64,000 nt of DNA from Antedon mediterranea (Eukaryota > Echinodermata > Crinoidea > Comatulida > Antedonidae): contig NC_092678.1 in NCBI RefSeq assembly GCF_964355755.1, positions 21,610,922 to 21,674,921 on the forward strand, written 5' to 3'. Below, piece after piece: positions 12,301-62,356 of this stretch. The translations under genes were made by a program, and so were the position numbers. How positions within the stretch are numbered: position 1 is the first letter of the stretch; every line of letters starts with the position of its first letter. The notes under the pieces are model-generated. The model saw only the letters and a program-made list of their open reading frames with translations, was not told the origin of the DNA and did not search any database.

Positions 12301-15300
12301 CGGTAAATTATGTATTGTTTTTATGATATAAATTAGTATAAAACACATGTTATTAATAGGAGAAAATGTTAAATGTCATTAACATTTATTTGTTTTACCA
12401 GAAACAAGTTAAATATAAGAATATTATTAAACTATCCTGCGTGAAAACGCGTAAACAGCAACACGCCCGGTCACGCTATCGTAGCGCCCGGTTGGTAAAG
12501 CAAACTGTTTATACGGCAGTTTTTACTAAATAAATTGCATAAAACGAACAATTAAATATCCAAATAGTATTTAACATGATGTTGGCATGTAGTTGATAAC
12601 ATTTTTTATCATGAAAATACTACCGGTGGTCCAGCCTTTGATTAGTGAAACCGTCACAAAAAGTTGTATACATCCCAGATACATCCACACTTATGGCGGC
12701 GTCCTACCACATGGACAATATTACTGTTACAGGGAAAATCGCGGATTACTCATTTTTGTGATATATATTCTTTGGTAAGTCCCATATGCAGAAAAAAAAA
12801 ACGAAAAAAAAAAAAATTAAATTTGATCATTTTTTCTTCACAGTTGTTCAACGGCACTGATAATGCTCGCAGAAGAAGAGGCAACCACAATTTTAGAAGT
12901 TGAAAAATTACTTAAACAATCGTTAAAAGTCGCAGAAGCGAATTATCGGAAAAGTCTTGGTTTACAACATCACAGCTCAAGTCATGAGAAAATACATCGT
13001 AGGTTTTTAGTTGAAATTATTTTGATGATGTGTCTTACGACTCTGAGGCTGTCAAGTTGAAAAGTCATTCTTCTGTGCATGCTCAGAGTCATGTAGCCAG
13101 CCGAGAAACCAAAAGGTCGCTTATATCTAACAGTGTACTCTATTAAATGAAGTTTTAAATGTTGGAAAAATACACATTTTGAAAATGTGTTGTAATAAGA
13201 GAGATTGAGTTTATTAACTAGTTTGACAAAAAAGTTTGATGTACCCAAATATGGTAGTGACATGCCCATATATGGTAGTGATATGACATCGCTTTTTTTA
13301 CATAAAGTTTGATAGTGTAGACAGGGCTTAGGTATATTTTAATGCCGCCTTCTTGGATGAATATTGAATAATGTATTGCTTGATTATTTCTCAAATGTCC
13401 ATTTTAATTTCTGTCTTGACAGGGCGAGATACGAATGTCCTTGTTTACATAAAGCGTCGTCTGGCAATGTGTGCTCGCAAACTAGGTCGCGTGAAAGAAG
13501 CCGTCAAAATGATGCGAGATGTAAGTTGTTTATCGGTAAAATCAGGTTTTTGTTTTTGTTTTTTCTTGAAATGTGTTTCAATTGACCATTACTTGTGTTC
13601 AGAAGAAAATAGAATTTCCTCATCTCTACCATTTCTAAATTAATTAATTAATTTTCAGTATATCACTGAACTGCTAAGAAAGAATTTCTTCTGTGCCTAT
13701 TAAGAGTAAATAATTTATGCGGGAACACAGGCTTTAAATTTAATGAATTTCTTGTTTTATAAAGAAAATAAAAAATCGGATTAAAAAAAATCCATAAATT
13801 AATATTTAAAAATATGTAAATATAAGCAAATGAATAATTTAATTGTGATGAATTTGTTTTATGTTTTTTTTTTTTCCAAATTAAATATTCATAATTATAG
13901 TAATGAATACTTTTAAGTCTGCTCTAAAAAAATATTTGATGCTGAAAGAAAAAGCATTTTATATAGTGTATTGTATGTTTTTGTATAGTTGTATAGTTTA
14001 TATATATTTTCACGCTGCTGCTCTAGCCCGCTACGTCCCATTAGTACTACTCAATCAGAAGCTAAAGCAAGCAGCAGTTTTAGTTCTAAGGACGACAGTT
14101 TTGCGAAAATCAAAACTCCACTATAATTTATTGATGCCAGCTGCTACAGTAGACGCAAAAAACGTCTGGGAAAAGAGTCTATTAGGACATGTCATGCTAA
14201 AATTGCAAATCCCAAAGCATTTCTGGTATATTCACAGTCAGATATATTCATTGAATTATTATCGAAACAGTCCATTAAAGTTTGTGTTTGTAATAGGATA
14301 CTTCACACTTGAAATATCTAGGGTGATGAAGTGACCCCCAGACTTGACCTTAGCAATAAAATTAACTAAAGTGACAGAAATTGAGTATTCACTTCTGTAA
14401 CAAAAAAAAATAATATTTATTCACATATAAAAAGAGAAAAGAAACCCAAAAACCATTGTCTGATAGACAATTTAAGTATTTGTTGCTTTAAAATATTTTT
14501 CAATAAAGCGAGCAGCGTTTTTTGTAAGAAATATTTCTTGTTTAATATAGTCCTTTGTTTTTTTCATATACATTTGTTTTATATATTTATATGATGGTCT
14601 CTTGATTGTCAGCATATGCTGGTAAGGGCAACCCTCTTTAAACAAGGTTTAATTTAAAATTTAAAAAATTCTTTTCTTTCTTACACAAGTATATAAAATC
14701 CTGCTTGTGAATCTTGTTCCATGACACTAATCATCTTATGTGTTTATAATGAGTATTGATGGCCAATCACAAATCATGTACGTCATTTCGAAAGGGTAAT
14801 TAAAATTGTTTGAATTAGAGTTAAAGAGGCATCAGCTACCGATTGAATGGCGCAATCGCCAAATCAATATACAATTTAACTAAATACATGTTACACGTTG
14901 TTTCCGCTACCCACTCTTTACTACATTCAATTAAAGGTCAAAGGTCTATTGTGATGAATACTTATGCGTAGTAAACTGTAGAAATATGTGTAGATACTTT
15001 TTAAATAATTTGTTTATGTAATGTAATCACTGCCGTAACTCATTAGTGTCTGCAACCCCTGTAACATACTACACAGTATGCCTGGTCCCTTTAATGTTTT
15101 ACATAACATAATTATAACTGCATTGTACTGTTACATCTAACATGGTCCCTCACCATAATGCTCAGTTGTTAAATTCTTTGTGCTCTAAAGGCTGTTATAC
15201 AAATGTATTATACCTTTCATCATTCCTTACATACCTTTTATGGTATACCTTTGCTATACCTTTGCTATAGATTTAAAATGCTAACAAAACAAACAATAAC

Positions 15301-18103
15301 AACTTCGTTTTTTTTGCAGTTAATAAAAGAATATCCTATGGTAAGCGTATTCCAGATACACGAGAATTTAATAGAAACGTTATTGGAGATGCAGGCGTAT
15401 GCTGATGTACAAGCTGTGTTGGCCAAGTATGATGATATAACACTACCTAAGTCGGCTACAATATGTTATACAGCGGCATTGCTAAAGGCTAGAGCAGTCA
15501 GTGATAAGTAAGTTGGGGATCTTAAGCTCGGTTCCCACTAGGAGGCAATGCAAGGATGTAATCGCTAGACAAGTGCTTTGACTAATCACAAGCAATGGAT
15601 TATTCAAACTGTCGCTTGTCTTTTGTCAATGCACTTGCATTGCATCTATGTCTTTGCGTTGCGTCCTAGTGTCCAAGTGTTAGTAAACATATTTATCTTT
15701 TACATATATCGTGTACGCTTTACCCCTTTTACAGGTGGTGTTTTTAGGCTGATAACGTGATTAAGTTTGTTTCCAACAAGGGCGGATCTTTACGCAAAAT
15801 TATGATTATTAACTATTACTTTTTTTGCAGGTTTTCGCCTGAAGCTGCGTCTAAAAGAGGGCTTAGCACGGCGGAGATGAATGCGGTAGAAGCTATTCAT
15901 AGAGCTGTAGAGTTCAATCCACATGTTCCAAAGGTACTATAATGCTCTGTTACCAAATGTTTATTACCAAAAGGCTTTGAATTTGCTCAGTGGATTTCGA
16001 TATTAAATTCTTATGATATTTCTTATTGGTATTTTTATATATTTGTTATTATTATTATTATTATTTTAATTCAGCCTTGTTCTACAATCATGACATTGTA
16101 AAAATGGTCACAGCCTTGCCATATTTGGGTCGTATTACGTTATAATAAGTTTGAACTTAAATTTTAGGAAGTTAATTTTTATTAAAGAGTGCAATTAATT
16201 TTTTTTTGATATTACAGGATTTTGTCAAATTTAATGTTGGCTTTTATAAGTAGGTCGTCTACGCCATGAACTGTCACAGAAGACTAATGTTGTTTATCGC
16301 TTTTAAATGTCATCTCTCAGCCGTCATTAATCGTTAATTCACTTACGCTGAATGTTCGTCTCTGACTTTGTGGCTATTGGCTAATTATATTTTTATATGT
16401 TGAGGTCAATAGAGATTTGTTAACTCATATTGGTTTCACTATTTTCCTGGAATTTTAAAATTAACATTTCTTATCATCATCGTGTATTCAAGACGATTTA
16501 AATAGTGAATAAATTGAAAATCCAAATTCCAATTTATTTCAGTCACAATTTATTTTTATTATTTATCTAAATGTTGTAAAAAAATATTTTAAGCCAATAA
16601 TATCGGACTAGCATGTGATAGGCATGGATTTGAGCTTATCTGTACTATACTAATTGCATCCTTTAAGCAAGATGCTTAAACTCTCATTGCCTCATCCTTC
16701 GGATGGAATGTAAAGCCGTTTGGTCCTGTGTACTTAACAGTGCATGTTAAAGAACTTGGTACACTATTTGAAAAGAGTAGAAGTTTCTAGTTAAACTTGA
16801 GGACCAGAATAATACAGTTAACATTTAATAATTTAATAAGATTTTTTAAACACGCATATCCACCAAAGTGCTCAGGCGGAAAACTAATCCATAAACCTAA
16901 AAAATAAATCTAGACAAAAACCCACATAACTGCATTCCATTTACCAGCAATTTAAAGTGGTGCTAGTATATAACTCTATTTATTATTATTTAGTATTTGT
17001 TAGAAATGCGAAGTCTGATCTTGCCTCCGGAACACATCCTTAAACGTGGAGACAGCGAAGCGATAGCGTATTCTTTCTTCCATCTACAGCACTGGAAACG
17101 AGTTGAGGGCGCTCTGAATCTCCTGCACTGCACATGGGAGGGTACATTTCGTATGATTCCGTACCCACTGGAGAAGGGTCATCTTTTTTACCCTTACCCA
17201 AGTTGTACTGAGAGTGTTGATCGTGAATTGTTACCAGGTAATTTTTAAGTTAAGTTATACTTATGGCCTATGATACAGTTATGACATGTGATACAAATGT
17301 AACACTATATCACAGAATGTGCCTATGATACAATTATCGCATGTGATACAAATGTAACACTGTATCACAGAATGTGCCTATGATACAGTTATCACATGTG
17401 ATACAAATGTAACACTGTATCACAGAATGTGCCTATGATACAGTTATCACATGTGATACAAATGTAACACTGTATCACAGAATGTGCCTATGATACAATT
17501 ATCACATGTGATACCTATGAGAATGTGCCTTTGATACAGTTTTTTTTAAAATAGAAATCTAAATCATTGTTTTTGTGTTTTAGCTGCCTTCCATGAAGTA
17601 TCTGTCTACCCTAAGAAAGAGCTGCCGTTCTTCATCTTGTTTACAGCTGGTCTGTGCACGTTTACAGCGCTTCTAGCTCTACTTACTCACCAGTTTCCAG
17701 ATCCAATGGGATTTCTAGCAAAAGCAGTGAGTTTTAGAGAATTTAGAGGACGTCTTTGTGACACAACAATGTGTCCACTACTAAGCCTTAATCTTTGAAA
17801 AGTGTCCCCATAAAGGTGTGTCCCAACGGAAGGATTCTAATAAATAAAAAAGTACTGATGAAGAAAGCTTCTGGTACTTGAGATCTGACTTTCGTTAACA
17901 GAAAATTAAAAATATTAGAGATAAAGCTATAAGATATGTTTTTAAAATGTGTAGTAGTGATGATTGGTTTTGTTGATAATTTTTTTATTTGTGTTTTTTT
18001 TTTTCAGTTCCTTTCCTCTGTATCTGTTCCATTCAGTTACTTGGTGGATAAACTAGAAACAGTCATTCCTTCCAGCCTACTTCAGCAGCTGACAAAGCTC
18101 TAA
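3338..18103 (+). CDS. ST7: ST7 (suppressor of tumorigenicity 7) protein, lacking first exon
   Basis: Eleven coding exons: 3338-3420, 6784-6916, 8125-8295, 8609-8687, 12844-12998, 13423-13520, 15320-15507, 15831-15933, 16994-17237, 17584-17726, 18008-18103 (TAA at 18101). Phases agree at every junction, giving about 497 residues. The product matches the ST7/ST7L family almost end to end: the membrane-proximal [18 protein letters not shown] segment, [43 protein letters not shown], the helical AEEEATT...[10 protein letters not shown] repeats, [38 protein letters not shown], the [11 protein letters not shown] block, and a C-terminal hydrophobic segment ([20 protein letters not shown]). ST7 is a multi-pass membrane protein studied as a candidate tumour suppressor; its biochemical role is poorly defined. 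The first exon is expected upstream of the window, since exon 3338 begins with the last two bases of a codon. The optional exon of about 23 residues known in some vertebrate isoforms (between exons 8609 and 12844) was not found. Introns carry several MITEs. Confidence 0.97.
3537..3692. mobile_element. MITE, family A (GTTCCCACTAG termini)
   Basis: Long terminal inverted repeats: the left end reads GGTTCCCACTAGCGACGCAA and the right end TTAGTGGGAACCAAGC, with CTTGCGTTACG/CGTAACGCAAG-type subterminal arms and a central CTTGTGATTG / CTTGTCATTGG region. No ORF. It sits just downstream of the 3338-3420 exon of ST7. Related copies lie near 15.5, 21.5, 35.6 and 43.1 kb. Confidence 0.8.
4524..4681. 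mobile_element. MITE, family B (CTCTGTCTACACTATCAAA termini) with internal 21-bp repeats
   Basis: The right end TTTGATAGTGTAGACAGAG is the reverse complement of the left terminus seen in sister copies at 5.14, 25.76 and 41.2 kb. Here the left end has decayed to AAAGCTCTGAATAC. The interior carries about three head-to-tail units of period 21 (TGATATGCCCAAATAAGGTAG), an expansion within the element. It is intronic in ST7. Confidence 0.65.
5139..5301. mobile_element. MITE, family B
   Basis: The left terminus AAAGCTCTGTCTACACTATC is mirrored by a right end reading TAGTATAGACAGAGCTT. The interior holds the family words TGTGATGTGCCCATATATGG and TATCACTACCATATTTGGG. No ORF; it lies inside an ST7 intron. 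Confidence 0.75.
6400..6660 (+). mobile_element. SINE-like element remnant
   Basis: The text shares words with copies near 3005-3180 and 11.5 kb: a 'ctgggataa(a/g)cct' block, 'cctactcatc', and 'ccacgccctca'. It ends in a short GTGAGTGAATGAATAAAATG tail like the simple-repeat tails of SINEs. There is no clear tRNA-like head in this copy. Boundaries are approximate. Confidence 0.4.
7857..8031. mobile_element. Inverted-repeat element, family F
   Basis: The left arm GGTCAAAATGATTCTACTCC and the right arm, ending CAGTATAATAATTTTGACAT, are imperfect reverse complements, enclosing AT-rich DNA. The same arms form the compact element near 950. It lies just upstream of the 8125 ST7 exon. Confidence 0.5.
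11480..11765 (-). mobile_element. tRNA-derived SINE, minus strand
   Basis: Read on the minus strand from about 11765, the element starts with a tRNA-Ser/Leu-like head: an A-box-like TGGCCGAGTGGTTAAGAC, then CGTAGCCATAACATCGGC, then a B-box-like GGGGTTCAATGC. The spacing is right for an internal pol III promoter. A tRNA-unrelated body follows, including ATCTTTCGAGATGAGTAGGG, down to about 11480. A related head recurs in the 183-bp repeats at 31.9-32.3 kb. It is intronic in ST7. Confidence 0.7.
13210..13331. mobile_element. MITE, family B (short copy)
   Basis: It begins around TTTATTAACTAGTTTGACAA and ends AAGTTTGATAGTGTAGACAG followed by GGCTTA. The interior words TGCCCATATATGGTAGTG and ATATGGTAGTGATATGACAT match the family B core. 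It lies between the 12844 and 13423 ST7 exons. Confidence 0.65.
14022..14330 (+). pseudogene. Possible decayed coding fragment in ST7 intron
   Basis: One frame gives a protein-like segment opening [19 protein letters not shown], broken by a TAA at 14124, then continuing with Lys/Arg-rich text and two short Cys-containing patches ([15 protein letters not shown] and SIKVCVCN). The local base composition is richer in G+C than the surrounding AT-rich intron. It could be a relic of a transposon ORF or a retrocopy. I do not recognise the family, and a chance reading is not excluded. Confidence 0.2.
15529..15680. mobile_element. MITE, family A (diverged copy)
   Basis: The left end CGGTTCCCACTAGGAGGCAA and the right end TTGCGTTGCGTCCTAGTGTC are the family A inverted termini, with the CTAATCACAAGCAATGGAT core word. 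It starts only about 20 bp after the donor of the 15320-15507 ST7 exon. Confidence 0.7.
16620..16795 (+). mobile_element. SINE-type conserved tail remnant
   Basis: It contains CATCCTTCGGATGGAATGTA, AAAGCCGTTTGGTCC and TTGAAAAGAGTAGAAG in order. From general knowledge this resembles a conserved body segment seen in many invertebrate SINEs (cttcggatgg...aaagccg...ggtccc...gaaaagagtag). No tRNA-like head is visible, so this is a 5'-truncated or old copy. It lies in the ST7 intron before the 16994 exon. Confidence 0.5.
17267..17522. repeat. 55-bp tandem repeat with internal palindrome
   Basis: Units beginning CCTATGATACA start at 17267, 17322, 17377, 17432 and 17487, an exact 55-bp spacing, followed by a partial unit. 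Each unit carries TATCACATGTGATA (perfectly palindromic in most copies, with an E-box-like CACATGTG centre) and CTGTATCACAG. It is intronic in ST7, starting about 30 bp after the donor at 17238. Confidence 0.9.
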
Positions 18104-27700: not shown

Positions 27701-30700
27701 CCTCCATTAGCTCCAAATATGCACGGTAGCATGAACCATCCTCTGACTAACCAGCAACTGTATAGTAGTTTGTATCAGCGTGAGCATACCAGTTCAGTAC
27801 CACTATCATCATCTACTCCTTCAATCTCTCCTATTGTGTCGGCATCATTTGCCAGATGGTCAAAGGAATCGATTATAAAGAAACCCTCACCAATTGCGAC
27901 CATTGTTCCGCTCATTAAATCTAGTAGTCAGGATGGTCATAGACAAGAGGGTAGTAGAGAAGATGTCCATAGACAAGATAGTGGTAGAGAAGATGTCCGT
28001 AGACAAGATAGTGGTAGAGAAGATGTCCGTAGACAAGATAGTGGTAGAGAAGATGTCCGTAGACAAGACAGTGGTAGAGAAGATGTCTGTAGACAAGATA
28101 GTTGTAGAAAAGATGTCTGTAGACAAGATAGTGATAGAGAAGATGTCCGTAGACAAGACAGTGGTAGAGAAGATGTCTGTAGACAAGATAGTTGTAGAAA
28201 AGATGTCTGTAGACAAGATAGTTGTAGAAAAGATGTCCGTAGACAAGATAGTGGTAGAGAAGATGTCTGTAGACAAGATAGTGGTAGAAAAGATGTCCAT
28301 AGACAAGATAGTGGTTGGGAAGATGTCCGTAGACAAGACAGTGGTAGAAAAGATGTCCGTAGACAAGGCACTAGTAGATATGATACCGATACAAATGCTG
28401 ATTTGACTAAAAACCAACAAAGAAGATTGGATCTTCCTGTGAGACAATCTCAGAGGCTTCGACCTGTTAAAGAGAGTCATAATGCAAGATCCTCTAATAT
28501 GGGTTACTACGCAAAAGATAAACATTCCCAAAAAGTGGAGATATTACAGTTTAGAAGAAAAAAAAGAAAATCACCAGTAGCGGAGAAGTCGCATCCAGAA
28601 AATGTGGACATGGTCGTTTCACAACAACGTGCAAGAAATCAAAATAAAAAGAACACTTCTGCAGATAGATCTAATGTGAGGAAAAACTTCAAAAGCAATA
28701 AGGCAAAACCGAAGAGAAAATCCTTCAGAGGCCTGTCAAAAAGTTTATCTTATTCTGACCTAAGCACTGCCACTCATGCAGCTAATACAACTGGTACATT
28801 GAAGAGACATCACAGCCTTACTACTAACCCTGATACCACCAGCTCAGAAGATGAAGATGGAATTTTTCTAAGCTTTTTAGATGAAAACTCACCGGAGATA
28901 TGTACATCAACACAAGGTCAGTAAACATTTTAGTTTATTCAAAAGGTTAGCAGAATGCTATTTATGTCATTAGAGAACTAACATTTAAAGATGTATTGTC
29001 CCTTTGACTAATTCCTAAAAAAATAAAAGATTTCGAAAAAAGGTGGGTCAATTTGAATTATCATAATAGTTATTAACTATCACCAACAATTTTTCAAAAA
29101 AAAAATCATTTAACTGAAATACAGATGTTTTTTTTGTTGTTTTTTTTTACTTCCAGTCAAAGTTTTCAATCAAAACATATCCCATAATGAAACGCGCTTG
29201 TTTGGCTACTCTGTATGCATAATCATAAAACTTCCTCATGATATGTGTGAAAATACCTTCTTAACCGTGACGAGTTGTAAACAATCCTAATTTAGCATAT
29301 GCATAATGCATACTCATGGTTTGAAATCTTTGTTTACTTAATTCGCTCGCGACGATTTTCCAGATGAAATGTAATCAAACTAATTTACCTGTTAATTACC
29401 TAAACTTGTTGTTTTTGGCTCGAATTTTCGACTTAAAGTGAATAACTTTAATATTACTTTGATATGGCCACTTTAAATTTAGAATATTTTGACCGCAACT
29501 ACACCAAATCCACAAATTTGGCCTAGTCACAGGGAGTTGTCACAATTTTCTTCCTGCTGCACAGTGCACTTTTAAAAGCTTTGTACCAAATGCTAAAGTT
29601 CACAGCATTGTCTATTACCATATTAATAATGTTAAATGCATGACTTTCAATTTATGAATCAACTTGAAATTAAGTGATTGTAATTAAAGTTACAAGTTAC
29701 TTTAAAATGTCATGCACGCTTTAATTAAAATATGGCAGCTCAATTTTCTTTATTAATAAGATATGATGGTTAAGTGAAGTTAATGAATAACCTCTATACA
29801 CCTAAAACATTATATATTTCCAACAATTGTTAACTTCGACCTAGTCATTTGTTGAGTACTTGCACTCTTTGTATATTAGCAGTGTGTGTTTAATTTACTA
29901 CAAATCACTTTAATCATTGCCATTGTCTTGTTTGGCAACATAGGCATCTTCCTTGATTAATGCACGTTATTAAAAGATGGCTCTAAGCTGTAATTAACAC
30001 ACTTTAGTTTTAGGCTCCAACAAACAAATTGTTGTAAAAGGAAGCCTTTTAAAAGAAATATTTCGTTACAGAGGCCTAATTTTGTTGAAATTTAATAATG
30101 ATTTTCTATAATGTATAATATTCAAATAGTACAGTACTATAACCCTTCCTTTGGTACACCCCTATAAACAAACGAGTGGCAATATATGTCTTAATACTAT
30201 GGCTAACCCATGTCAAGGAACACCACCATTAAGGTCAATTTACAAACACGAGCAGTAACGGTCAAGCGTAAAATCGCGTAGCTTGTCCCACAAGAAACCC
30301 TTCCTCCGCTCTGTGTAAAGGAGTAACATAGATTCTATATTTTTATTACTGTTACCACTCGTTGGTGTGAATTGACCTTTAGGGGGACACTTTTTTAGGT
30401 CCCAAGGGTGTCCCTTTTTTATGGGTTCTATCATATTATGAATAAAATAAAGTTTTTTTTTGTTTTTAATATAGATTTATTTTTAATAACAATGTTTATT
30501 TTTCAAATAGGTGAAAAACTGATGTCGGGCAATATTATCTTAAAGTACCCTGATACTGATGACTCACAGCTAGAGAGCTCTCAAGGAAGTATTGACGTTT
30601 CAAAACTGCAACTTGAACGTACGTGTAAACAAACAAAATTCAATAAATAGATAAATTCTATGATTAAATATTTTTCTGAAAATCTCATGATTTCCAGAAA

Positions 30701-32540: not shown

Positions 32541-33535
32541 CATTATATCAAAAATGGTTTAGGAATTGCACTATATAACACCAACCTACTAACAAAATCA
32601 TCACATTATATCACAAATGGTTTAGGAATTGCACTATATAACACCAACCTACTAACAAAATCATCACATTATATCACAAATGGTTTAGGAATTGCACTAT
32701 ATAACACCAACCTACTAACAAAATCATCACATTATATCACAAATGGTTTAGGAATTGCACTATATAACACCAACCTACTAACAAAATCATCACATTATAT
32801 CACAAATGGTTTAGGAATTGCACTATATAACACCAACCTACTAACAAAATCATCACATTATATCACAAATGGTTTAGGAATTGCACTATATAACACCAAC
32901 CTACTAACAAAATCATCACATTATATCACAAATGGTTTAGGAATTGCACTATATAACACCAACCTACTAACAAAATCATCACATTATATCACAAATGGTT
33001 TAGGAATTGCACTATATAACACCAACCTACTAACAAAATCATCACATTATATCACAAATGGTTTAGGAATTGCACTATATAACACCAACCTACTAACAAA
33101 ATCATCACATTATATCACAAATGGTTTAGGAATTGCACTATATAACACCAACCTACTAACAAAATCATCACATTATATCACAAATGGTTTAGGAATTGCA
33201 CTATATAACACCAACCTACTAACAAAATCATCACATTATATCACAAATGGTTTAGGAATTGCACTATATAACACCAACCTACTAACAAAATCATCACATT
33301 ATATCACAAATGGTTTAGGAATTGCACTATATAACACCAACCTACTAACAAAATCATCACATTATATCACAAATGGTTTAGGAATTGCACTATATAACAC
33401 CAACCTACTAACAAAATCATCACATTATATCACAAATGGTTTAGGAATTGCACTATATAACACCAACCTACTAACAAAATCATCACATTATATCACAAAT
33501 GATGTAGAATTACATCCCCAAAAAATATTGCACTA
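32541..33535. repeat. 63-bp minisatellite, 15 near-identical copies
   Basis: The word TTTAGGAATTGCACTATATA starts at 32558 and recurs every 63 bp through 33440, giving 15 units with almost no differences between interior copies; edge units are diverged. It begins about 13 bp after the presumed stop of the IHO1-like gene. One frame has no stop across the array but has no in-frame ATG either. Homogeneity implies recent expansion or ongoing gene-conversion-like turnover. Confidence 0.97.
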
Positions 33536-35784: not shown

Positions 35785-37429
35785 TGATCGGATTTGTCAC
35801 CATCAAAAGCTCTCATCCTGACGTCATCATCGCTCCAATCATTATTATTATTATTATTATTTTTATTTATAAAACCTCGCATAAGATATCGTAGAAAATC
35901 TCCAGAAAAAATAAAAACACCAGATTGTTTTAGTTGTGCATAAAATATGTAATTGAAAATTCAGTTACAGTAATTGTACTTTCCTACGATTATAATAGCT
36001 GAGCACCAAGAAATGAAATATATTACACGATGATCTTATAAAATATTGATAATTCTTAATGGTAACAATTATATAAACACTTGTTATTAATAATAATAAT
36101 CGCTGTCCAATATGAGGATGCCTAATTCCCGGTGGTAAAACTATTAGTAAAGTAAAGTGAACTCATCCCTGGTAAACTTATAACAACTTGTTCACTAAAG
36201 TATGTACTACTTACAGAAATGATTGTTCTGGTTACTAAATCAACTTAGGCCTACAGTGATAAATAACTTACATACATAAATAAATTATCTTACTTCTAGT
36301 ACAATTATAACACGTACAGTTAAAACAGATATGTACTTCTAAAAAAAATATGACTACACGTACGTCCAGTTAAACGTTTTAGTTACCAAATATTACCATA
36401 TCAAACTCCTTTCTTCGTTTACTCTTTAGAAAACAATACTATAAAAGCATTCCATACGAAAAAAAAAGGGATTTGTTTGTTAAATTTTTACGAGATTGTC
36501 CTAAATTAATTAACATATTACCAGGATTTTTATTTAACCTGGTGCCTATAGTAAACGCAATTAAACAATTGTGATCCAAAAGGCAATATATCTATATCTA
36601 ACTATTCATTTAAAATTATCCATTGTGTTGGGTGTGGCGTTAACACCATATTTTCATTTAGAAATGTTAGTCATATCGTCTAGCATACATTAACTAGTGC
36701 TTCTTGTATATAGACAATACCTCTACAAATGTGAGGCAGTGAAACGCATCAATATACACAGAATTGCACGTATAAAAACTGTACCATAATTATGAGCTTT
36801 TTACGCGCCGAGGAGTGAAGTGCATTTTTTGTTACAATTATGAAAACATTTTCTTTTGTCATATTTCACTACTTTTAATTTGGTTTCAATCATAAAAATA
36901 TATCATAATAATTATCAGAACTCGCTCTATTATAAACAAAGCATTTTAAAAACATTTTTTTTCTTTTGAGTAAACGTTCTATTGTTCTCATAATTAGTAT
37001 TAAAAACATCCAAAAATCGTCTAAATCTACAAAACAATCTATATTTCACATTCAAAATTACTTGTTGTATTTTATACAATATATTGCACTTTTCACTCCC
37101 AGTGGCCTGTTCCTCTGCGTGTGATCGCAGACAAAAATGTCAAGGAAAAACGAACTTTTCACAACAAATAGGGTACAGTTAACATTAAGTGAAAAAGAGG
37201 ACATTCATATTTTGTTTACAATTTTAATAAAAATCTATTTTAATATTTACATAGTGTGTAAATTATTCATCGTTTCGTCACGCTTCGCCGAATACAGCAG
37301 CAGAATGTGTTGAATCGAGAAAAGTGACGACACGCGGCAAATCCGTGAACCGTGTACAGAGTGCTGCGTTAAGTTCTGTAATGAAAAATTAAAATGAATG
37401 CAATAATCGTAATATACACTTCATCATCG

Positions 37430-37680
37430 TCATAATCATTGTCGTCATCATCTTCGTCAATCATCGTCACCATCATCATCGTCATCATTTTCGTCAATCA
37501 TCGCCGTCACCATCATCGTCATCATCGTTATGATCATCATTGTCGATCGTCATCATCATCATCATTGTCATCATCATCATCGTTATCATCATCATCGTTA
37601 TCATCATCGTCGTCGTCATCATCGTTGTCGTCATCATCATCGTTGTCATCAACCATCACCATCATCATGATCATCATCAC
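37430..37680. repeat. TCA/TCG trinucleotide microsatellite
   Basis: A compound microsatellite built of ATC, GTC and TCG triplets (CATCATCATCGTTATCATC and similar), about 250 bp. It ends roughly 60 bp beyond the stop codon of the peptide-precursor gene, so it may lie in that gene's 3' untranslated region. All frames are open through it, which explains the Ser- and Ile-rich ORFs. Confidence 0.9.
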
Positions 37681-37742
37681 ATCAATATTATTACAGCTTA
37701 TTATTACATTATTCTCAATTTGTTAGTCCCCACCTGTTATAT

Positions 37743-40025
37743 TCAAATGAGGTCCATCTTCTTAATCCTCTTCATCTTTGCATCCCTTTCAAGTTCGGCC
37801 ATTGAATGAATACTTCGTTTGAATAAGGCCGGATCCTCCACCATGCGACGTTCACGGTTGCTTCGTTGGTTTTTCCGTTGGTTTTTCATGAATTCTTCAA
37901 TCAATGGGCCTAATTCAGGGTGATCATCGATGAAAAGAAGCGGATGCAATCTTTTAGCGCGGTTCAGCTCCTGATTGTCCGCCGCTGCCATTTCCATTTC
38001 ATCATCCACCATGCGACGTTCACGGTTGTTTCGTTGGTTTTTCATGAATTCTTCAATCAATGGGCCTAATTCAGGGTGATCATCGATGAAAAGAAGCGGA
38101 TGCAATCTTTTAGCGCGGTTCAGCTCCTGATTGTCCGCCGCTGCCATTTCCATTTCATCGTCCACCATGCGACGTTCACGGTTGTTTCGTTGGTTTTTCA
38201 TGAATTCTTCAATCAATGGGCCTAATTTAGGGTGCTGATCGAGGAAAAGAATCGGATCCAATCTTTTAACGCGGTTCAGCTCCTGGTTGTCCGCCGCGGC
38301 CATTACTACTTCATCCATTCGTTTCTCCCGAAGCAAACCACCGCCGCCGTCGCTCCCTCTGCGCTCTCTATTAACCAACTCATCTTTATTCTATAAATAA
38401 ATAAAATTATGTATTAGGCCGCCTACAACCCATAGAGAATCATTGTTCTCAAAATAAACATTACCTGCCCTATACAACTGTAACCATTCTTATTTTGTGT
38501 AAACATTATTTTAAGAAATATTGTCTAATAATAAAATGTCAGTGTTGTTAAATAAACATAATAATACTGTATTCCAAATTTGTTCGTCCACTATATACTA
38601 AATTGCAATGCTTTCCATGAACTGGGAATTTATTTAATGGTTTAAAAAAAAATCAATTTCTGAGATCAATATAATTAATGTATTTGCCGCAGTACATTGA
38701 CATTAACATACAAAACCTCGAGTCGGTAAAACTAATTAACGTGGCCATCATCATGAATCGTGTTGTTCATTATTAAACCTTGTTCTGACTGCTGTCTGCT
38801 GTAAGCGGGAAAACAGAGACCACGTTCTCTCTACACAATGCAAAATGTACTTAAGACCGCGAGCCCACAACAGAACAATTAAATTTCGATTTTTCATTTA
38901 AACACAAGAGCATGGCCTTGTGTCAAATTACAATTCTATTAAATTGAGAAGAATTAATGCTTTGCAATTACTGTGTATTTTAATAGGTCTGTTTCTCAGT
39001 GACACCATCATAGAGATATCATTGTAGGCCTACACGCGTGTTTAAATGTTGATGGTAAAGGCCAATTTACACAGACGAGCGGTAGGGCCTAACGGTAAGC
39101 GGAAAATAAAACTAACATGGAATCTGCTATTTCTTATGACGATTTATACTAAACGTGGGCGGCAGTCGAGCGGGAACCCGCGCTCGGATAGTAGATACAA
39201 ATTCACGTGGGACAATCTACGCGGTTTCCGCTCGTCTGTGTAAATTGGCCATGATAATACAGTGGCTTTTGGACCGTACACCATGCGCGACTTTGCCGGG
39301 TCCGTTACTTGCCGGATAAGTTGGCTTCATTGCCAAATTACAATATCGCACTTTGGTTGAGTAGTGAACCATTTTACTGGGGTAGGCCTATAACGTAACT
39401 TGGGCCTCCTATCGTCACGTATAACGATATAAGTTAACAGAACCTCACGCATCTTGTTCTTACTACCTTTTTGAGATGCTTTGATCTTGTATTTTTCATG
39501 AATGGCGCGCCATACTATTATTGAGAGCAATACTATATATTTATCATACATAGGCCTATCTCTGCGAATCTTCATTTATACAACGGTTTTTTTATTAAGT
39601 ATTTCATAAATTTATATCTAAATCCATGTAATAGAAACATTACCTTGCGTTTAATATTATTTTGTAAAAGAAAACAGGTATCTTATCGAAGTGGGCCAAC
39701 GCATGCGCATTGTGTGGTTTTCACAGATTATTATAGGTTATCTATATCACAAAATTACACTTTTAAACATATAGAAGCGTTTGTACTTGTACATATTATA
39801 TACATATTAGGCCTATGCCTATACAGTTACTTAACAAATTGTAACATTATGAATGTATTAATGATTAATAATATTAAAGATATTGTCGTGAATTCTCTAT
39901 GTTCAATTGATCATTGCACTACCTGCAAAAATCATAATAATAAAAAGAATACATACCACTGGGATGGCTTCGGACGTCACTAAAATGACAACGATCCCGT
40001 ACACAAATAACAGCTTAGAATACAT
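37743..40025 (-). CDS. Secreted multi-copy peptide precursor (candidate neuropeptide/hormone)
   Basis: Minus-strand exons: 39957-40025 (ATG at 40025) and 37743-38390, joined in phase 0 by a GTATGT...TATAG intron, 238 residues. Exon 1 encodes a classic signal peptide (MYSKLLFVYGIVVILVTSEA). Exon 2 has no Cys and three tandem units, each an acidic spacer (MAAADNQELN) ending RVKR or RAKR, then a core of about 30 residues patterned L-H/D-P-x-L-F-x-D-x-H-P-x-L-G-P-L-I-E-E-F-M-K-N-Q-R, ending RERR. RxKR and RxRR are furin-type sites, so three similar peptides would be released. A final segment has KR sites flanking SIHSMAELERDAKM. No C-terminal Gly for amidation is seen. Signal peptide, dibasic sites and repeated peptides are the hallmark of neuropeptide precursors; I do not recognise the peptide family. 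Units are 156-168 bp and nearly identical in DNA, suggesting recent or concerted duplication. Confidence 0.8.
39055..39253. mobile_element. MITE, family D (well preserved)
   Basis: The left end AAAGGCCAATTTACACAGAC followed by GAGCGG is the reverse complement of the right end, CCGCTCGTCTGTGTAAATTG followed by GCC. The interior has AACGGTAAGCGGAAA and its partner TACGCGGTTTCCGC. It lies inside the intron of the peptide-precursor gene. Confidence 0.85.
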
Positions 40026-41049
40026 TTTTAATATACAGTACCGTATACGTATAAAACGTTGACAAAATAACGTGCTTCGTTTTCAAGCTTAAAGCGTGTT
40101 CACATGTCGCTTTCCCGACCCTTTCTGCTGATTATATATCCGTGTGCAGGGTTGTTACTGCGCATCTCAGTAATTAATTATCATTTTGCAAATGATATGT
40201 CCGTCGCACAAAGCCTTTGATAGATCGTTGCTATGGTTTTCGTCAGACGAAAAGCTGATTATGTATAATTTATGCGCATATCGCATTGGTCGTAATTTCA
40301 GTCGCTCATTCCCATGAGACTTACTGTGTCAAACGGTATAATGTTGATATTTAATATTAATAACTCATCGTACGCTGATAAAATATTCATTTATTGAAAA
40401 AACGTTTTATTTTATATTTACCAATACATGTTCATAATTTAATATTTCTTCACTGTCCTATAATGAAATATTACAAATTAATTTTAGGTGAATATTATTA
40501 AACTACTACTGTATATAATATTAATTATTATTTTTAGGCAAAATTATTTTTACATTGTTTATTTTAGTGATTGTTATGGTAGCAACACACATAAGTGTTG
40601 TCTGTTATTTTAATTTGTAGTCTACAAAAACGTTTTGTAAAAAGACAAATAAATAAAAATATCAAAATAAGATTATGCCAATACTTTTGATTCAAATAAT
40701 TGTATATTAAAATATTATACTAATGTTTTCATTGAAAAAAAGGAAAACATTTAGTGTCTTACATATAGTATTAGGCCTATATGCGGTGTAAGCTATAACT
40801 GGTACAAGTGATAACACTTAATTTTCAAAAATCCGCAGCCATGAAACAGCGGACTTAAACTTATTTAACGTACAAACTTATATCGTATGCATTTGAGTAC
40901 GCGTGCGCAAACTTGGTGTCTATTGCGTGATTCCATCGAGTTATTATAGATTGACTAGAGGGCGTACTCCTACGGCAATTAAATAATAATACCTCGAATG
41001 GTTATTTCTCATAATGATATTATAGATGGCGCTATATCGCTAACTTTTT

Positions 41050-57133: not shown

Positions 57134-58066
57134 TCATGTCTTAACGTTGCATCTACAGTTAATGATGGTATGAATCGAATTTTTGTATTCCTTTCTTAAG
57201 TTAGAATTTCCTAAGCTGTAAATGATCGGGTTCATCATTGAATTCGAAAACAATAGTACGTCTGAAAACGTACCAAACCAGGCTGACCATAACGCACCGC
57301 TATATTTCAATACATAATATACTGCTCTCGGTGAAATACATACAATAAACACTGCAGTAACTGCAGCAGTTATCTTAGACGCTTTCATGTTTAAAGTGTT
57401 GACGGGTTGACCGAGACGCGATGCTCTCTCTTTATTGTGCCTTCTCGCAATTATGAAAATATAGAAATGCGTGATCGAAATAATTGGTACAATAAGCAAT
57501 AAAACCGTCGTATTTAAGTAAAGGAATACAAAATCTCCATATATGGAATAAAGTTGGTCAAATCCGTCGCAGTAATTGTTGTTCGAGTCTGTGTAGTTAA
57601 AGTTGATGATGATGCCCGCGACAAATGTTACATTGTACGAAAGAATACCCGCGATAAAGCCTATAACATTACAAATGATGCTGATCCGAACTGCTCTCCC
57701 AGGTGTCATCCACACCTTATATCGGAGCGGGAACCGGACGGCACAAAACCTTTCCGCTGTCATGGTCATTATATTCACAAGTGACATACAAAGCAAGATT
57801 TTCACGGGTGCAAAATACAATTCTGTACAATATCTTGTTATGAATGCAATCGTTGCCAGTGGAACGCCAATCAATCCGGTTAGAAAATCTACAACAGCTA
57901 AAGATCCGGCAAAAATATTAACAGGTTTCTTAGCCATTGCCGAATTTCGGTATAACGTAAAAAGAAAAATGGAGTTTGCCAGCAAAATCAGCAACACAAT
58001 TGGAGCATAAATGTATATTAGAAACACATTGTTATTACCAGTTGTAGTCTCGTTAGCGGATTCCAT
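57134..58066 (-). CDS. Class A (rhodopsin-like) GPCR, cluster copy 1
   Basis: Single exon, 310 residues, seven hydrophobic segments. Landmarks: N-glycosylation sequon NET at residue 5; TM1 with Asn31 (ANSIFLF); TM2 LAVVD with Asp60; Cys80 before TM3 and a Cys in the second extracellular loop (NNNYCDG) for the usual disulphide; ERF (105-107) in place of DRY; TM6 FIVCISP, lacking the common Trp after Cys; TM7 NSMMNPIIYSL carrying NPxxY. The position of the amine-binding Asp in TM3 appears to be non-acidic, so an amine ligand is unlikely. The ligand is unknown. It is about 1.67 kb from, and over 90% alike in protein to, the next copy, and the 5' and 3' flanks are also shared, indicating recent tandem duplication. 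The ATG is followed by the same ESANETTTGNNN/ETANETTTGNNN start in both. Confidence 0.93.
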   Translation of the reverse strand: MESANETTTGNNNVFLIYIYAPIVLLILLANSIFLFTLYRNSAMAKKPVNIFAGSLAVVDFLTGLIGVPLATIAFITRYCTELYFAPVKILLCMSLVNIMTMTAERFCAVRFPLRYKVWMTPGRAVRISIICNVIGFIAGILSYNVTFVAGIIINFNYTDSNNNYCDGFDQLYSIYGDFVFLYLNTTVLLLIVPIISITHFYIFIIARRHNKERASRLGQPVNTLNMKASKITAAVTAVFIVCISPRAVYYVLKYSGALWSAWFGTFSDVLLFSNSMMNPIIYSLGNSNLRKEYKNSIHTIINCRCNVKT

Positions 58067-58310
58067 TCTGTAATTTATCTGTATAGGCCTATCCGTATGA
58101 GATAAATCTGAATTTTTAATTTATATTATACCCGAGAGATGACAGGTTGTTCATCAAATCAAATATTTTCAAGATTACCAGTACAATGCATTTAAAAGAA
58201 CTGGTTTCGTAATAATAGAGTGCGCACTTTATTTCTGTTTTTAATACACGATGATAACTCGACCGAACTTTATTTATGTTGCATAATTGAGTCATTTTCT
58301 CTACACTTGG

Positions 58311-58318
58311 TGACGTCA
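58311..58318. promoter_or_regulatory. CRE-like palindrome upstream of GPCR copy 1
   Basis: TGACGTCA, a perfect full-site cAMP response element word, about 245 bp upstream of the start codon, next to TGATGACATCAG and a TATATATAA stretch (58337-58345). The TATA run reads plausibly on either strand. A binding function is inferred only from the word. Confidence 0.3.
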
Positions 58319-58808
58319 CATGATTGATGACATCAGTGTATATATAACCAAACTGTCTGATGTACTATGTTAGCGATTGACATATTGTTATTAAATTTCA
58401 CTAACCACTTAAGTCACTATTAATAATTACATTATTAATTAGAATATACTTTAATGATTGACAATTATGACATAATAGCCTTAATTGTTATACTTTGTCA
58501 ATAATAGTTGACACTATAATTATTACCATCATTCAATAAATGAGAGAGAGAGAGAGAGATACAAAGGTTTTAAAACTGCTTTACATTACCAATATATCCT
58601 CTAATATGTCTAAGTTGGTCACTCGAATTAAACTCGAGAACTAAATTACTTAGCCATATACGTACATCCTAAAACGTTAAACCGCTCGAATTAAACTCGA
58701 GGAATAAGCATGTCTAACCTTTGTATCCTGTTCACTCAAATAAAACTCAAGTGCGAACTTAATCAATGTACAAAACAACAATTTGTGAAACTACTACGAT
58801 ATATTTTC

Positions 58809-59738
58809 TTATATCTTAAAGTTGCATCTACAGGTAATAATGGTACGAATCGACTTTTTGTATTCCTTTCTTAAGTTAGAATTTCCTAAGCTGTAAATGA
58901 TCGGGTTCATCATTGAATTCGAAAACAATAGTACGTCTGAAAATGTACCAAACCAGGCTGACCATAACTCGTCGCTATATGTTAATAATCCATTATATAC
59001 TGCTTTCGGTGAAATACATACAATAAACACTGCAGTAACTGCAGCAGTTATCTTAGACGCCTTCATGTTTAAAGTGCTGACGGGCTGACCGAGACGCGAC
59101 GCTCTCTCTTTCATGTGTCTTCTCGCAATTATGAAAATATAAAAATGTGTGATCGAAATGATTGGTACAATAAGCAATAAAACCGTCGTATTTAAGTAAA
59201 GGAATACAAAATCTCCATATATGGAATAAAGTTGTTCAAGTCGGTCGCAGTCATTCGAGGTTGTGTAGTTAAAGTTGACGAAAATACCCGCGACAAGTGT
59301 CACACTGTACGAAAGACTACCCGCGATAAAGCCTATGACATTGCAAATTATGCTGATCCGAACTGCTCTTCCAGGTGTCATCCACACCTTATATCGGATC
59401 GGGAACCGGACGGCATAAAACCTTTCCGCTGTCATGGTCATTATATTCACAAGTGACATACAAAGCAAGATTTTCACGGGTGCAAAATACAATTCTGTAC
59501 AATATCTTGTTATGAATGCAATCGTTGCCAGTGGAACGCCAATCAATCCTGTTAGAAAATCTACAACAGCTAAAGATCCGGCAAAAATATTAACCGGTTT
59601 CTTAGCCATTGCCGAATTTCTGTATAACGTGAAAAGAACAATGGAGTTTGCCAGCAAAATCAGCAACACAATTGGAGCATAAATGTATATTAGAAACATA
59701 TTGTTATTACCAGTTGTAGTCTCGTTAGCGGTTTCCAT
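58809..59738 (-). CDS. Class A GPCR, cluster copy 2
   Basis: Single exon, 309 residues, a close paralogue of copy 1. The same landmarks are kept: NET sequon at residue 5, ANSIVLF in TM1, LAVVD in TM2, ERF motif, CISP in TM6, NPIIY in TM7. Differences concentrate in the second extracellular loop (TTSNDCDRLEQL versus a longer Asn-rich version), the third extracellular loop (a residue inserted around YNGLLTYSDELW) and the extreme C-terminus, i.e. ligand-facing and tail regions. The 5' flank to about 59810 matches the copy 1 flank almost base for base, then diverges where the 92-bp array begins. The ligand is unknown. Confidence 0.93.
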   Translation of the reverse strand: METANETTTGNNNMFLIYIYAPIVLLILLANSIVLFTLYRNSAMAKKPVNIFAGSLAVVDFLTGLIGVPLATIAFITRYCTELYFAPVKILLCMSLVNIMTMTAERFYAVRFPIRYKVWMTPGRAVRISIICNVIGFIAGSLSYSVTLVAGIFVNFNYTTSNDCDRLEQLYSIYGDFVFLYLNTTVLLLIVPIISITHFYIFIIARRHMKERASRLGQPVSTLNMKASKITAAVTAVFIVCISPKAVYNGLLTYSDELWSAWFGTFSDVLLFSNSMMNPIIYSLGNSNLRKEYKKSIRTIITCRCNFKI

Positions 59739-59850
59739 TCTGTAATTTATTTCTGTATCCGTATGAGATAAATCTGAATTTTTAATTTATATTATACCTG
59801 AGATGACAGGTTGTTCATCATATCAACGTTTTCAAGTTTACCTTCCTATA

Positions 59851-60455
59851 GAGTGCGCACTTTATTAGTTTATATCCACAGTGATGACTCGAGAGAAAAT
59901 TATAAAGTTTCTGTTAGGCCCTTATTGTAAAGAACCAGTTCATAGAGTGCGCACTTTATTAGTTTATACACGATGATGACTCGAGCGAAAATTATAAAGT
60001 TACTGTTAGGCCCTATTGTAAAGTACCAGTTCATAGAGTGCGCACTTTATTAGTGTATACACGATGATGACTCGAGCGAAAAGTGTTAAGTTACTGTTAG
60101 GCCCTTATTGTAAAGTACCAGTTCATAGAGTGCGCACTTTATTAGTTTATACACGATGGTGACTCGAGCGATAAGTGTTAAGTTACTGTTAGGCCCTTAT
60201 TGTAAAGTACCAGTTCATAGAGTGGGCACTTTATTAGTTTATACACGATGATGACTCGAGCGAAAATTCTAAAGTTACTGTTAGGCCCTTATTGTAAAGT
60301 ACCAGTTCATAGAGTGGGCACTTTATTAGTTTATACACGATGATGACTCAAGCGAAAATTATAAAGTTACTGTTAGGCCCTTATTGTAAAGTACCAGTTC
60401 ATAGAGTGCGCACTTTATTAGTTTATACACGATGGTGACTCGAGCGAAAGTGTTA
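59851..60455. repeat. 92-bp tandem array upstream of GPCR copy 2
   Basis: GAGTGCGCACTTTATTAG (GAGTGGGCAC in two copies) starts at 59851, 59945, 60036, 60128, 60220, 60312 and 60404: seven units of 91-94 bp. Each carries CACGATG(A/G)TGACTCGAGCG (an AP-1-like half TGACTC overlapping an E-box CTCGAG) and TTACTGTTAGGCCC(T)TATTG. A single diverged unit stands upstream of copy 1 at about 58217. The array fills the gap between the copy 2 promoter and the 3' end of copy 3. Confidence 0.95.
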
Positions 60456-60474
60456 AGTATTTATTGTTATTGTG

Positions 60475-61431
60475 TTACTCTCTACATTTACAGATATTCC
60501 GGGTCAGGATCCGGGTACAAAATAACTTTTTGAAATTTTTCCTGAAGGTGGAGTTTCCCAAACTATAAATTAACGGGTTTATCATTGAATTTGAACATAT
60601 TAATATTTCTGAAATAGCGCCGAACCAGAACGACCAAAAGTGATTGTTATACGAGTTAAAATCACCCAACAGGTAAACACCTTCTGGTATGATACATATA
60701 AGAAACATAATAATAATGGTTGTAGTAATTCTCGACGCTTTCATATCAAACGTATTAATCTTCTGTCCAATACGCAGTGCTCTCCCCTTCATGTGTCTTC
60801 TGGCTATTAGAAAAATATACACATTCACAAACAACATTATTGTTATTATAACTGATATTGATAGTGTGTTGAAATAAAAGAATACGAATTCTCCATATAT
60901 GGGATAGAGATTGTCAAATTGTTCGCAGTTATGTGTCAATGTCGAATGGTTGAAGTTCATTATTATTCCGGCTACAAATGTTACACTAAACGAAATACTA
61001 CCTATGATGAAACCTATAAAATTACCAAAAATACTGATCTGAACTGCTCTTCCTGTCGTCATCCACACCCGATATCGAATCGGAAACCGGACGGCATAAA
61101 ACCGATCTCCTGTCATGATCACTATATTTATCAAAGACATGGCTAGCAAAGTTATTTCTGGTGCAAAATACAATTCGTAACAAGGTAGGTTTGAATCTTG
61201 TTTTATAAAACCGACGATCGCGAACGGAACGCCAAACAATCCGGTTAGAAAATCAACAACTGCTAAAGATCCGACAAAAATATTAACAGGTTTCTTAACC
61301 GAACTTCGGTAAATCGTGAAAAGAACGATAAAGTTGCTGAATAAAATTAGTAACATAATTGGAGAATAAATATATATAAAATAGAAAGGAATTGAAGGCT
61401 GGATGTTGTCAGTCTCATTGGTGTTGTCCAT
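60475..61431 (-). CDS. Class A GPCR, cluster copy 3 (diverged)
   Basis: Single exon, 318 residues from the ATG at 61431. That start (MDNTNETDN) aligns with the ME(S/T)ANETTT start of the other copies; an in-frame ATG at 61479 would add 16 residues without counterparts. Landmarks: NET sequon, FSNFIVLF in TM1, LAVVDFLTG in TM2, DRF (closer to DRY than the ERF of copies 1 and 2), TM6 FLICIIPEGVY, TM7 NSMINPLIYSLGNS. It is clearly the older branch of the cluster: same order of loops, many substitutions. The relic at 56.5 kb resembles this copy most. The ligand is unknown. Confidence 0.92.
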   Translation of the reverse strand: MDNTNETDNIQPSIPFYFIYIYSPIMLLILFSNFIVLFTIYRSSVKKPVNIFVGSLAVVDFLTGLFGVPFAIVGFIKQDSNLPCYELYFAPEITLLAMSLINIVIMTGDRFYAVRFPIRYRVWMTTGRAVQISIFGNFIGFIIGSISFSVTFVAGIIMNFNHSTLTHNCEQFDNLYPIYGEFVFFYFNTLSISVIITIMLFVNVYIFLIARRHMKGRALRIGQKINTFDMKASRITTTIIIMFLICIIPEGVYLLGDFNSYNNHFWSFWFGAISEILICSNSMINPLIYSLGNSTFRKNFKKLFCTRILTRNICKCRE

Positions 61432-61479
61432 TTCTGCCGCTTCTTCTAGCCACACGGCAATTTTGTGTAATATCATCAC

Positions 61480-62356
61480 CGTAGTGTGTGTAATTGAGTT
61501 TTTCTGATTAGGTTATCAAATATATAATACTAACATCAACATTGAATGACAATTAATTATTGATCAACTCTATCGGCAGTGAGGAGAGCAAGAGAATGAC
61601 AACTGCCGGCGGTGAAGTTAGCCGTCTGAGCATCCAAACGATAATTTAAATTAGCTAGGCCTTACGATGGTTAGACATATATCATCTTCCAATGATACTT
61701 CATTGATAGCTAACTACAATATTTCATAAATCATGCGACCATCTTATATAATATACATATATAAAGTATAATTGTGTGCACGTACTATGAATCATTATAT
61801 TTATGATTTTAACAATTAATTTTTCAAATCCAATCTACTTTTTTGGATATTGATATTTTTGATTTGTATAGCAGTGATAGAATTTGCTGATCTAGTATTA
61901 ATTCAAATGATTATTGTACAAGTATACTGATTTTAATTGTCTAAATTACAAGTTGATTCACGTATTTTTTGCGTTTGTTTATTATTATTATTGGTATATA
62001 GATGTTGTTTTTAATTATTCATTAGTAATGTATGTCCTCTCGGCCCAGGTGAACACAAAAAAAGATAGGAGATAAACAAACTATAACAAAATACGTGCTG
62101 GTTTTTTTACATCTTATTTCATTGTCAAATGTTACAGCTGCTTACAATACGTTTCTGAATCATCGTTATGTAGGTTGTGATCTGTATATGTATTTAGATG
62201 TCATTTTTTATTTGAAATTCGAGGACGCAAGTACCAGTCAAAAATATTGATTATTGGATTTCACTCCAAAGTTAACATAAGTGTTTACGTAACCCAATAT
62301 ATTTAGTCAGATTTTTGAAGTTACAGCACAAGTCGTTATTGTTGGTAATCATCAGA
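61480..62356. other. Spacer between GPCR copy 3 and lectin gene
   Basis: AT-rich, with nothing recognisable apart from simple TTATTATTATTAT and ATATATAA runs. It would contain the divergent upstream regions of both genes. Confidence 0.6.

Follow-up and report, generated by a model that had tools for sequence, protein, structure and literature searches.

What does the minus strand encode between positions 37743 and 40025 of the window, that is, of the whole 64,000-nt stretch of Antedon mediterranea DNA analyzed here, and, if the product is a secreted precursor, what kind of peptide would it release? Very probably the locus is a genuine gene of a familiar class, that of multi-copy precursors of secreted peptides, and its peptide could be assigned to no family. 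We infer from the anatomy of the sequence a splice, processing, secretion and a signaling role, and we consider it likely that this single-copy crinoid gene specifies a precursor that undergoes furin-type processing and serves most probably as a source of a neuropeptide or hormone acting via some receptor.

The predicted two-exon gene and its surroundings

The spliced precursor would be 238 aa long, encoded by two coding exons on the minus strand that are joined at a predicted GT-AG junction in phase 0. The coding part of exon 1 (39957..40025, 69 nt, 23 codons) encodes MYSKLLFVYGIVVILVTSEAIPV, read from 40025 to 39957, and ends at the donor GTG/GTATGT. The predicted intron (38391..39956, 1566 nt) conforms to the splice consensus and closes with the acceptor ...TTATTTATAG/AAT, again in phase 0, and the coding part of exon 2, stop included, covers 37743..38390 (648 nt, 215 codons plus the stop). 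Exon 1 comprises a signal peptide, MYSKLLFVYGIVVILVTSEA, followed by IPV. The signal peptide is called by hydropathy, with a maximum of 3.14 in an 11-residue window, and by the -3/-1 rule, with S-x-A ahead of the cleavage point; it is probably 20 residues long and cleaved at SEA/IPV, which would leave three further residues coded by exon 1. Since an in-frame TAG lies immediately 5′ of exon 2, secretion of the precursor would depend on the splice.

GC content reaches 43% in exon 1 and 47% in exon 2; the intron has 34% and the flanks 30–36%. The ATG is preceded, at a distance of about 113 nt, by a putative TATA box, TATATAAT (40131..40138, minus strand), and two ATTAAA hexamers (37223..37244, minus strand, starting at 37244 and 37228), about 500 nt past the stop codon of the precursor, are candidate poly(A) signals; both kinds of element are identified by their match to the consensus. 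A genome-wide paralogue search (354 Mb, 18 contigs) places the gene at a single locus. Within what is probably its 3′ UTR, a long, imperfect GAT-type trinucleotide tract (37411-37691) begins about 50 nt past the stop.

Other parts of the window have features of their own. Exons of ST7 (PF04184) occupy 3331-17729 on the plus strand, with one upstream exon outside the window, and nesting of the precursor gene within an ST7 intron was considered and rejected, as the ST7 matches stop near 17.7 kb of the window. An ORF at 27924-28367 (plus strand) contains a 30-nt repeat (GREDVRRQDS) in about 14 copies; the predicted protein is charged and matches nothing in Pfam. A 63-nt minisatellite at 32541-33501 has 15 copies, 99% alike, one frame of which is free of stops and gives a 335-aa repeat ORF. 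Three tandem single-exon genes for rhodopsin-class GPCRs, all matching Pfam 7tm_1, lie at 57134-61512 on the minus strand; genes 1 and 2 are 91% identical and gene 3 is 56–57% identical to these, and the closest solved relatives of gene 2 are the adenosine A2a and histamine H2 receptors. The cluster was set aside as a source of the peptide's receptor, since proximity is all that links the two and the closest receptors of solved structure are those for adenosine and histamine.

Repeat units and predicted peptides

Exon 2 contains three direct repeats at 37868-38335, each of 156 nt, or 52 codons; the copy boundaries given here follow the register of the repeat search. Copy 3 (37868..38023), used as the reference, has the core LHPLLFIDDHPELGPLIEEFMKNQR from 37949 and then an additional KNQR. 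Copy 2 (38024..38179), 98% identical to the reference, has the same core, LHPLLFIDDHPELGPLIEEFMKNQR, from 38105, and copy 1 (38180..38335), with 80% DNA identity to the reference, has the core LDPILFLDQHPKLGPLIEEFMKNQR from 38261; all are on the minus strand. Each unit has an acidic spacer (AAADNQELN), a tetrabasic site, the core and a second tetrabasic site: RVKR, RAKR and RAKR precede the cores of units 1 to 3, and RERR follows all three. The additional KNQR of unit 3 results from a 12-nt in-frame duplication that gives KNQRKNQR, and the repeat lengths and this insert are all multiples of three. Additional tetrabasic sites are RERR and REKR, upstream of unit 1, and KMKR, close to the C-terminus. 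Both this description of three near-identical units and the in-phase joining of a 23-residue signal-peptide exon (40025-39957 to 38390-37743) had been given in the earlier note, and both agree with the sequence, the joining as a predicted splice.

Could this anatomy be a product of chance? The protein has nine [RK]x[RK]R sites, among them those that bound its three repeated peptide segments, where shuffles have 0.96 on average, and in 20000 shuffles that number is never attained; with one unit counted, there are 5 sites where shuffles have 0.62 (p=0.00015). When the 2.5 kb upstream was shuffled 1000 times by dinucleotides, two shuffles contained a signal-peptide exon that ends in a consensus donor of phase 0, and when the surrounding 10 kb was shuffled 200 times, an open run of 215 codons never appeared. 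Chance is not an adequate account of the anatomy of the precursor. The signal exon and the excess of cleavage sites support the proposal, made in the same note, of a secreted multi-copy peptide precursor.

The predicted products, all from the minus strand, are LDPILFLDQHPKLGPLIEEFMKNQRNN(RERR) at 38169..38261, with RVKR before and RERR after; LHPLLFIDDHPELGPLIEEFMKNQRNN(RERR) at 38013..38105, bounded by its flanking sites; and LHPLLFIDDHPELGPLIEEFMKNQRKNQRSN(RERR) at 37845..37949, for which the search gave 37863-37949 and the low end was carried on to RERR, beyond the KNQR insert, by counting codons. The peptides have no Cys and no amidation Gly. AlphaFold, run without an alignment, predicts a helix at residues 11-30 of product 2 (pLDDT 86–93 over the block of residues 11-31), and the amphipathic moment of the helix is mildly above that of shuffles (p=0.065). 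The net charge of the cores is -1 to -5, and an antimicrobial role was rejected on this ground, as it sets them apart from cationic antimicrobial peptides.

We propose that the signal peptide routes the precursor into the secretory pathway. There, furin or a furin-like convertase would cleave on the C-terminal side of the RVKR/RAKR and RERR sites, and the basic ends would be removed by a carboxypeptidase. The three cores, about 29 residues long, would in this way be separated from the acidic spacers (MVDDEMEMAAADNQELN), and the products would be 29-residue peptides (LHPLLFIDDHPELGPLIEEFMKNQRNNRE) and, from unit 3, a longer form. A second cut is possible at the K-x-x-R site KNQR, of a type typical for granule convertases, and would yield 24-mers ending in KNQ, namely LHPLLFIDDHPELGPLIEEFMKNQ (two copies) and LDPILFLDQHPKLGPLIEEFMKNQ (one copy). 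The calculated MH+ values are 2835.511 and 2845.459 for the 24-mers, 3504.842 and 3514.790 for the 29-mers, which end in RE, and 1925.756 for the spacer. This two-step scheme is proposed because the site types match those worked out for proSAAS, in which RxKR/RxRR are furin sites and basic pairs spaced by two residues are granule-convertase sites (PMC4141687). The released peptides would be acidic, non-amidated and about 24–29 residues long, with a predicted C-terminal helix, and it is natural to infer from the model a helical, non-amidated ligand of a G-protein-coupled receptor, no particular receptor being indicated.

It had also been claimed that the Pro/Gly residues and the Leu-rich hydrophobic face of the core are under constraint, and the acidic spacer had been called conserved too and a possible second product. 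The comparison of the copies does not bear this out. Over the 38 comparable codons (114 bases), a single base separates copies 2 and 3. Between copies 1 and 2 there are two synonymous differences in 23.7 sites and seven nonsynonymous differences in 90.3 sites, which puts dN/dS at about 0.9 (Fisher p=1); in the core, these copies differ by six changes, all nonsynonymous and mostly in the N-terminal half. The copies are young, by recent duplication or conversion. Because such recent duplicates are too young to show selection, their similarity is no evidence of constraint, in the spacer as in the core.

Neuropeptide, other secreted product or class-B ligand

In favor of the precursor are its anatomy, the splice signals, the rise in GC that is confined to the exons, the excess over shuffles, the candidate promoter and polyadenylation elements, the repeat and insert lengths in multiples of three, the single locus, the predicted helix, the furin-type sites, an intron placed as in crinoid SALMFamide genes and the presence of known crinoid neuropeptides in the same genome. 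Two points count against a neuropeptide. The peptides are without amidation, unlike most predicted crinoid neuropeptides, which carry it according to the main text of a 2022 crinoid survey (PMC9793003), and the sites are of the furin type, not plain KR, which fits constitutive, non-neural secretion equally well.

The main alternative is a secreted multi-copy precursor from egg coat, epidermis or gland, processed constitutively by furin, whose product would be a local or gamete signal and no neuropeptide. This reading agrees with the sequence almost as closely as the favored one does: every site flanking a core is an R-x-K/R-R furin site, the amidation glycine is absent, and echinoderm egg peptides (speract and asterosap) are likewise made from multi-copy precursors. 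However, the precursor has no sequence link to any egg-coat, epidermal or gland peptide, and the layout with a phase-0 signal exon is equally typical of neuropeptide genes, as described in the survey's main text (PMC9793003). We regard a non-neural product as rather unlikely.

It is distinctly improbable that the peptide is a highly divergent crinoid CRH, PDF or other class-B ligand, that is, a helical peptide of about 25–30 residues. The length and the C-terminal helix predicted by AlphaFold fit, CRH- and PDF-type echinoderm precursors contain peptides of similar length (29–41 aa) with basic sites at both ends, and ArPDF2 of starfish has 29 residues and is described without mention of amidation (PMC4772807). 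Moreover, CRH and PDF types are missing from the crinoid families that the survey lists (PMC9793003), and in the Antedon genome itself no match to CRF exceeds the cut-off and Pigment_DH has none at all, a weak test given the shortness of these models. Against this, the isolated core has no Pfam match at E=10. For the CRH type, defined by a single amidated peptide of about 41 aa, the core matches no CRF profile (E up to 10), its alignment to peptides from outside the echinoderms is no better than shuffles and it has no amidation Gly; for the PDF type, it has no Pigment_DH match, and alignment to PDF peptides from outside the echinoderms is no better than shuffles. Three near-identical copies also contrast with the single-copy CRH and paired PDF layouts described in papers including PMC4772807, and CRH differs in amidation as well. 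The least probable reading, to which we give little credence, is a non-functional one, in which the repeats have expanded in an open frame that no spliced transcript carries, or the gene is decaying; the tandem duplication is recent and the between-copy dN/dS is near 1, but the signal exon, the cleavage-site excess and the open frame are all far above shuffle expectation, stops and frameshifts are absent and the insertion is in frame.

Relatives and comparison with known systems

The neuropeptide or hormone precursor that we favor would have no recognizable relatives among the families searched. Neither the isolated core nor single units matched any Pfam family, even at E=10. The full protein gave Terminase_3C (E=2.7e-5) and DUF2853 (E=1.2e-4), both under the curated cut-offs, and since single units give no match, these weak matches are read as sums over the three repeats and are set aside. 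No match was found in the PDB for the precursor protein or for a profile of the three units, nothing of substance in NCBIfam for the precursor, and no occurrence of the peptide or core strings in a text search across 5.39 million papers. In local alignments to 25 known peptides, none exceeded shuffles (p at least 0.07, uncorrected for 25 tests). The statement in the earlier note that the family cannot be named stands.

It is tempting to propose, if only tentatively and at somewhat short of even chances, that this gene is the founder of a crinoid-specific family (or an echinoderm-wide one that has gone unrecognized) of non-amidated helical peptides with their own receptor, cut out by furin and occurring in big and little forms through KxxR cleavage. 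Among living echinoderms, crinoids are the sister group to all the rest, and catalogues of the peptides they use for signaling rest mainly on transcriptomes. Because it is non-amidated and bounded by furin-type sites, the present peptide would be easily missed by searches for Gly-Lys-Arg. The gene adds one orphan peptide to the crinoid repertoire within a known kind of gene, and no new kind of biology; it supplies exact sequences and masses to seek in Antedon data that already exist, as well as a ligand that could be tried on orphan receptors.

Other neuropeptide genes can be read in the same genome. At the neurophysin locus, an upstream exon encodes CFWRTCPVG-GKR, which is, letter for letter, the synthesized A. 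mediterranea crinotocin, whose Trp-Arg at positions 3-4 is given as a crinoid signature in the survey's main text (PMC9793003). Two more peptides reported from A. mediterranea, GLFPTGGMDPLGASYFT of PCNP4 and GHPKSNFILMP of PCNP5, are likewise encoded exactly. These matches mark the genome as that of Antedon or a very close crinoid; a COX1 search of it found no mitochondrial DNA. The ORF with PCNP4, GLFPTGGMDPLGASYFT-G (G000:C3, about 158.2–159.4 kb, minus strand), runs into about 16 copies of [A/S/G]FPGSGGMDTLGNGYF[TK]GKR, and these repeated peptides have the hallmarks that the survey's main text lists for pedal peptide/orcokinin (PP/OK) peptides, namely Phe near the N-terminus, a D-[P/T]-L core and an aromatic residue near the C-terminus (PMC9793003). 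Since its ORF continues into PP/OK-type repeats, PCNP4 is probably part of the Antedon PP/OK precursor, a precursor reported in the same text as not found in A. mediterranea (PMC9793003). Alignment to starfish SMP gives p=0.018 for the PCNP4 peptide and p=0.12 for the repeated peptide. This PP/OK-like gene is separate from the three-copy precursor gene.

How, then, does the three-copy precursor compare with known systems? Crinoid PCNP-type precursors, as presented in the survey's main text, resemble it in coming from crinoids, in having a signal peptide and peptides bounded by basic sites and in being mostly without relatives outside crinoids, and differ from it in that most of their peptides are amidated (PMC9793003). 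None of the PCNP1-20 peptides spelled out in that main text equals the core, and PCNP3, 6, 7, 9, 11, 17, 18 and 19, which it presents by description only, are amidated and partly Cys-bearing, unlike the core (PMC9793003). PP/OK-type precursors are likewise multi-copy and can include non-amidated peptides, whereas the core LHPLLFIDDHPELGPLIEEFMKNQ is without D-[P/T]-L, N-terminal Phe and C-terminal aromatic residue and falls outside that type. Crinoid SALMFamide genes have, by the same account, a phase-0 intron between a signal-peptide exon and a multi-peptide exon (PMC9793003). The present gene shares this arrangement, but its peptides have neither an LxFamide or FxFamide ending nor an amidation Gly, which places them outside the SALMFamides. 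With mouse and rat proSAAS, the comparison is one of how the precursors would work, with no claim of sequence similarity: both have furin sites of the form RxKR/RxRR, and proSAAS, a precursor of neuroendocrine cells, gives rise to peptides in big and little forms.
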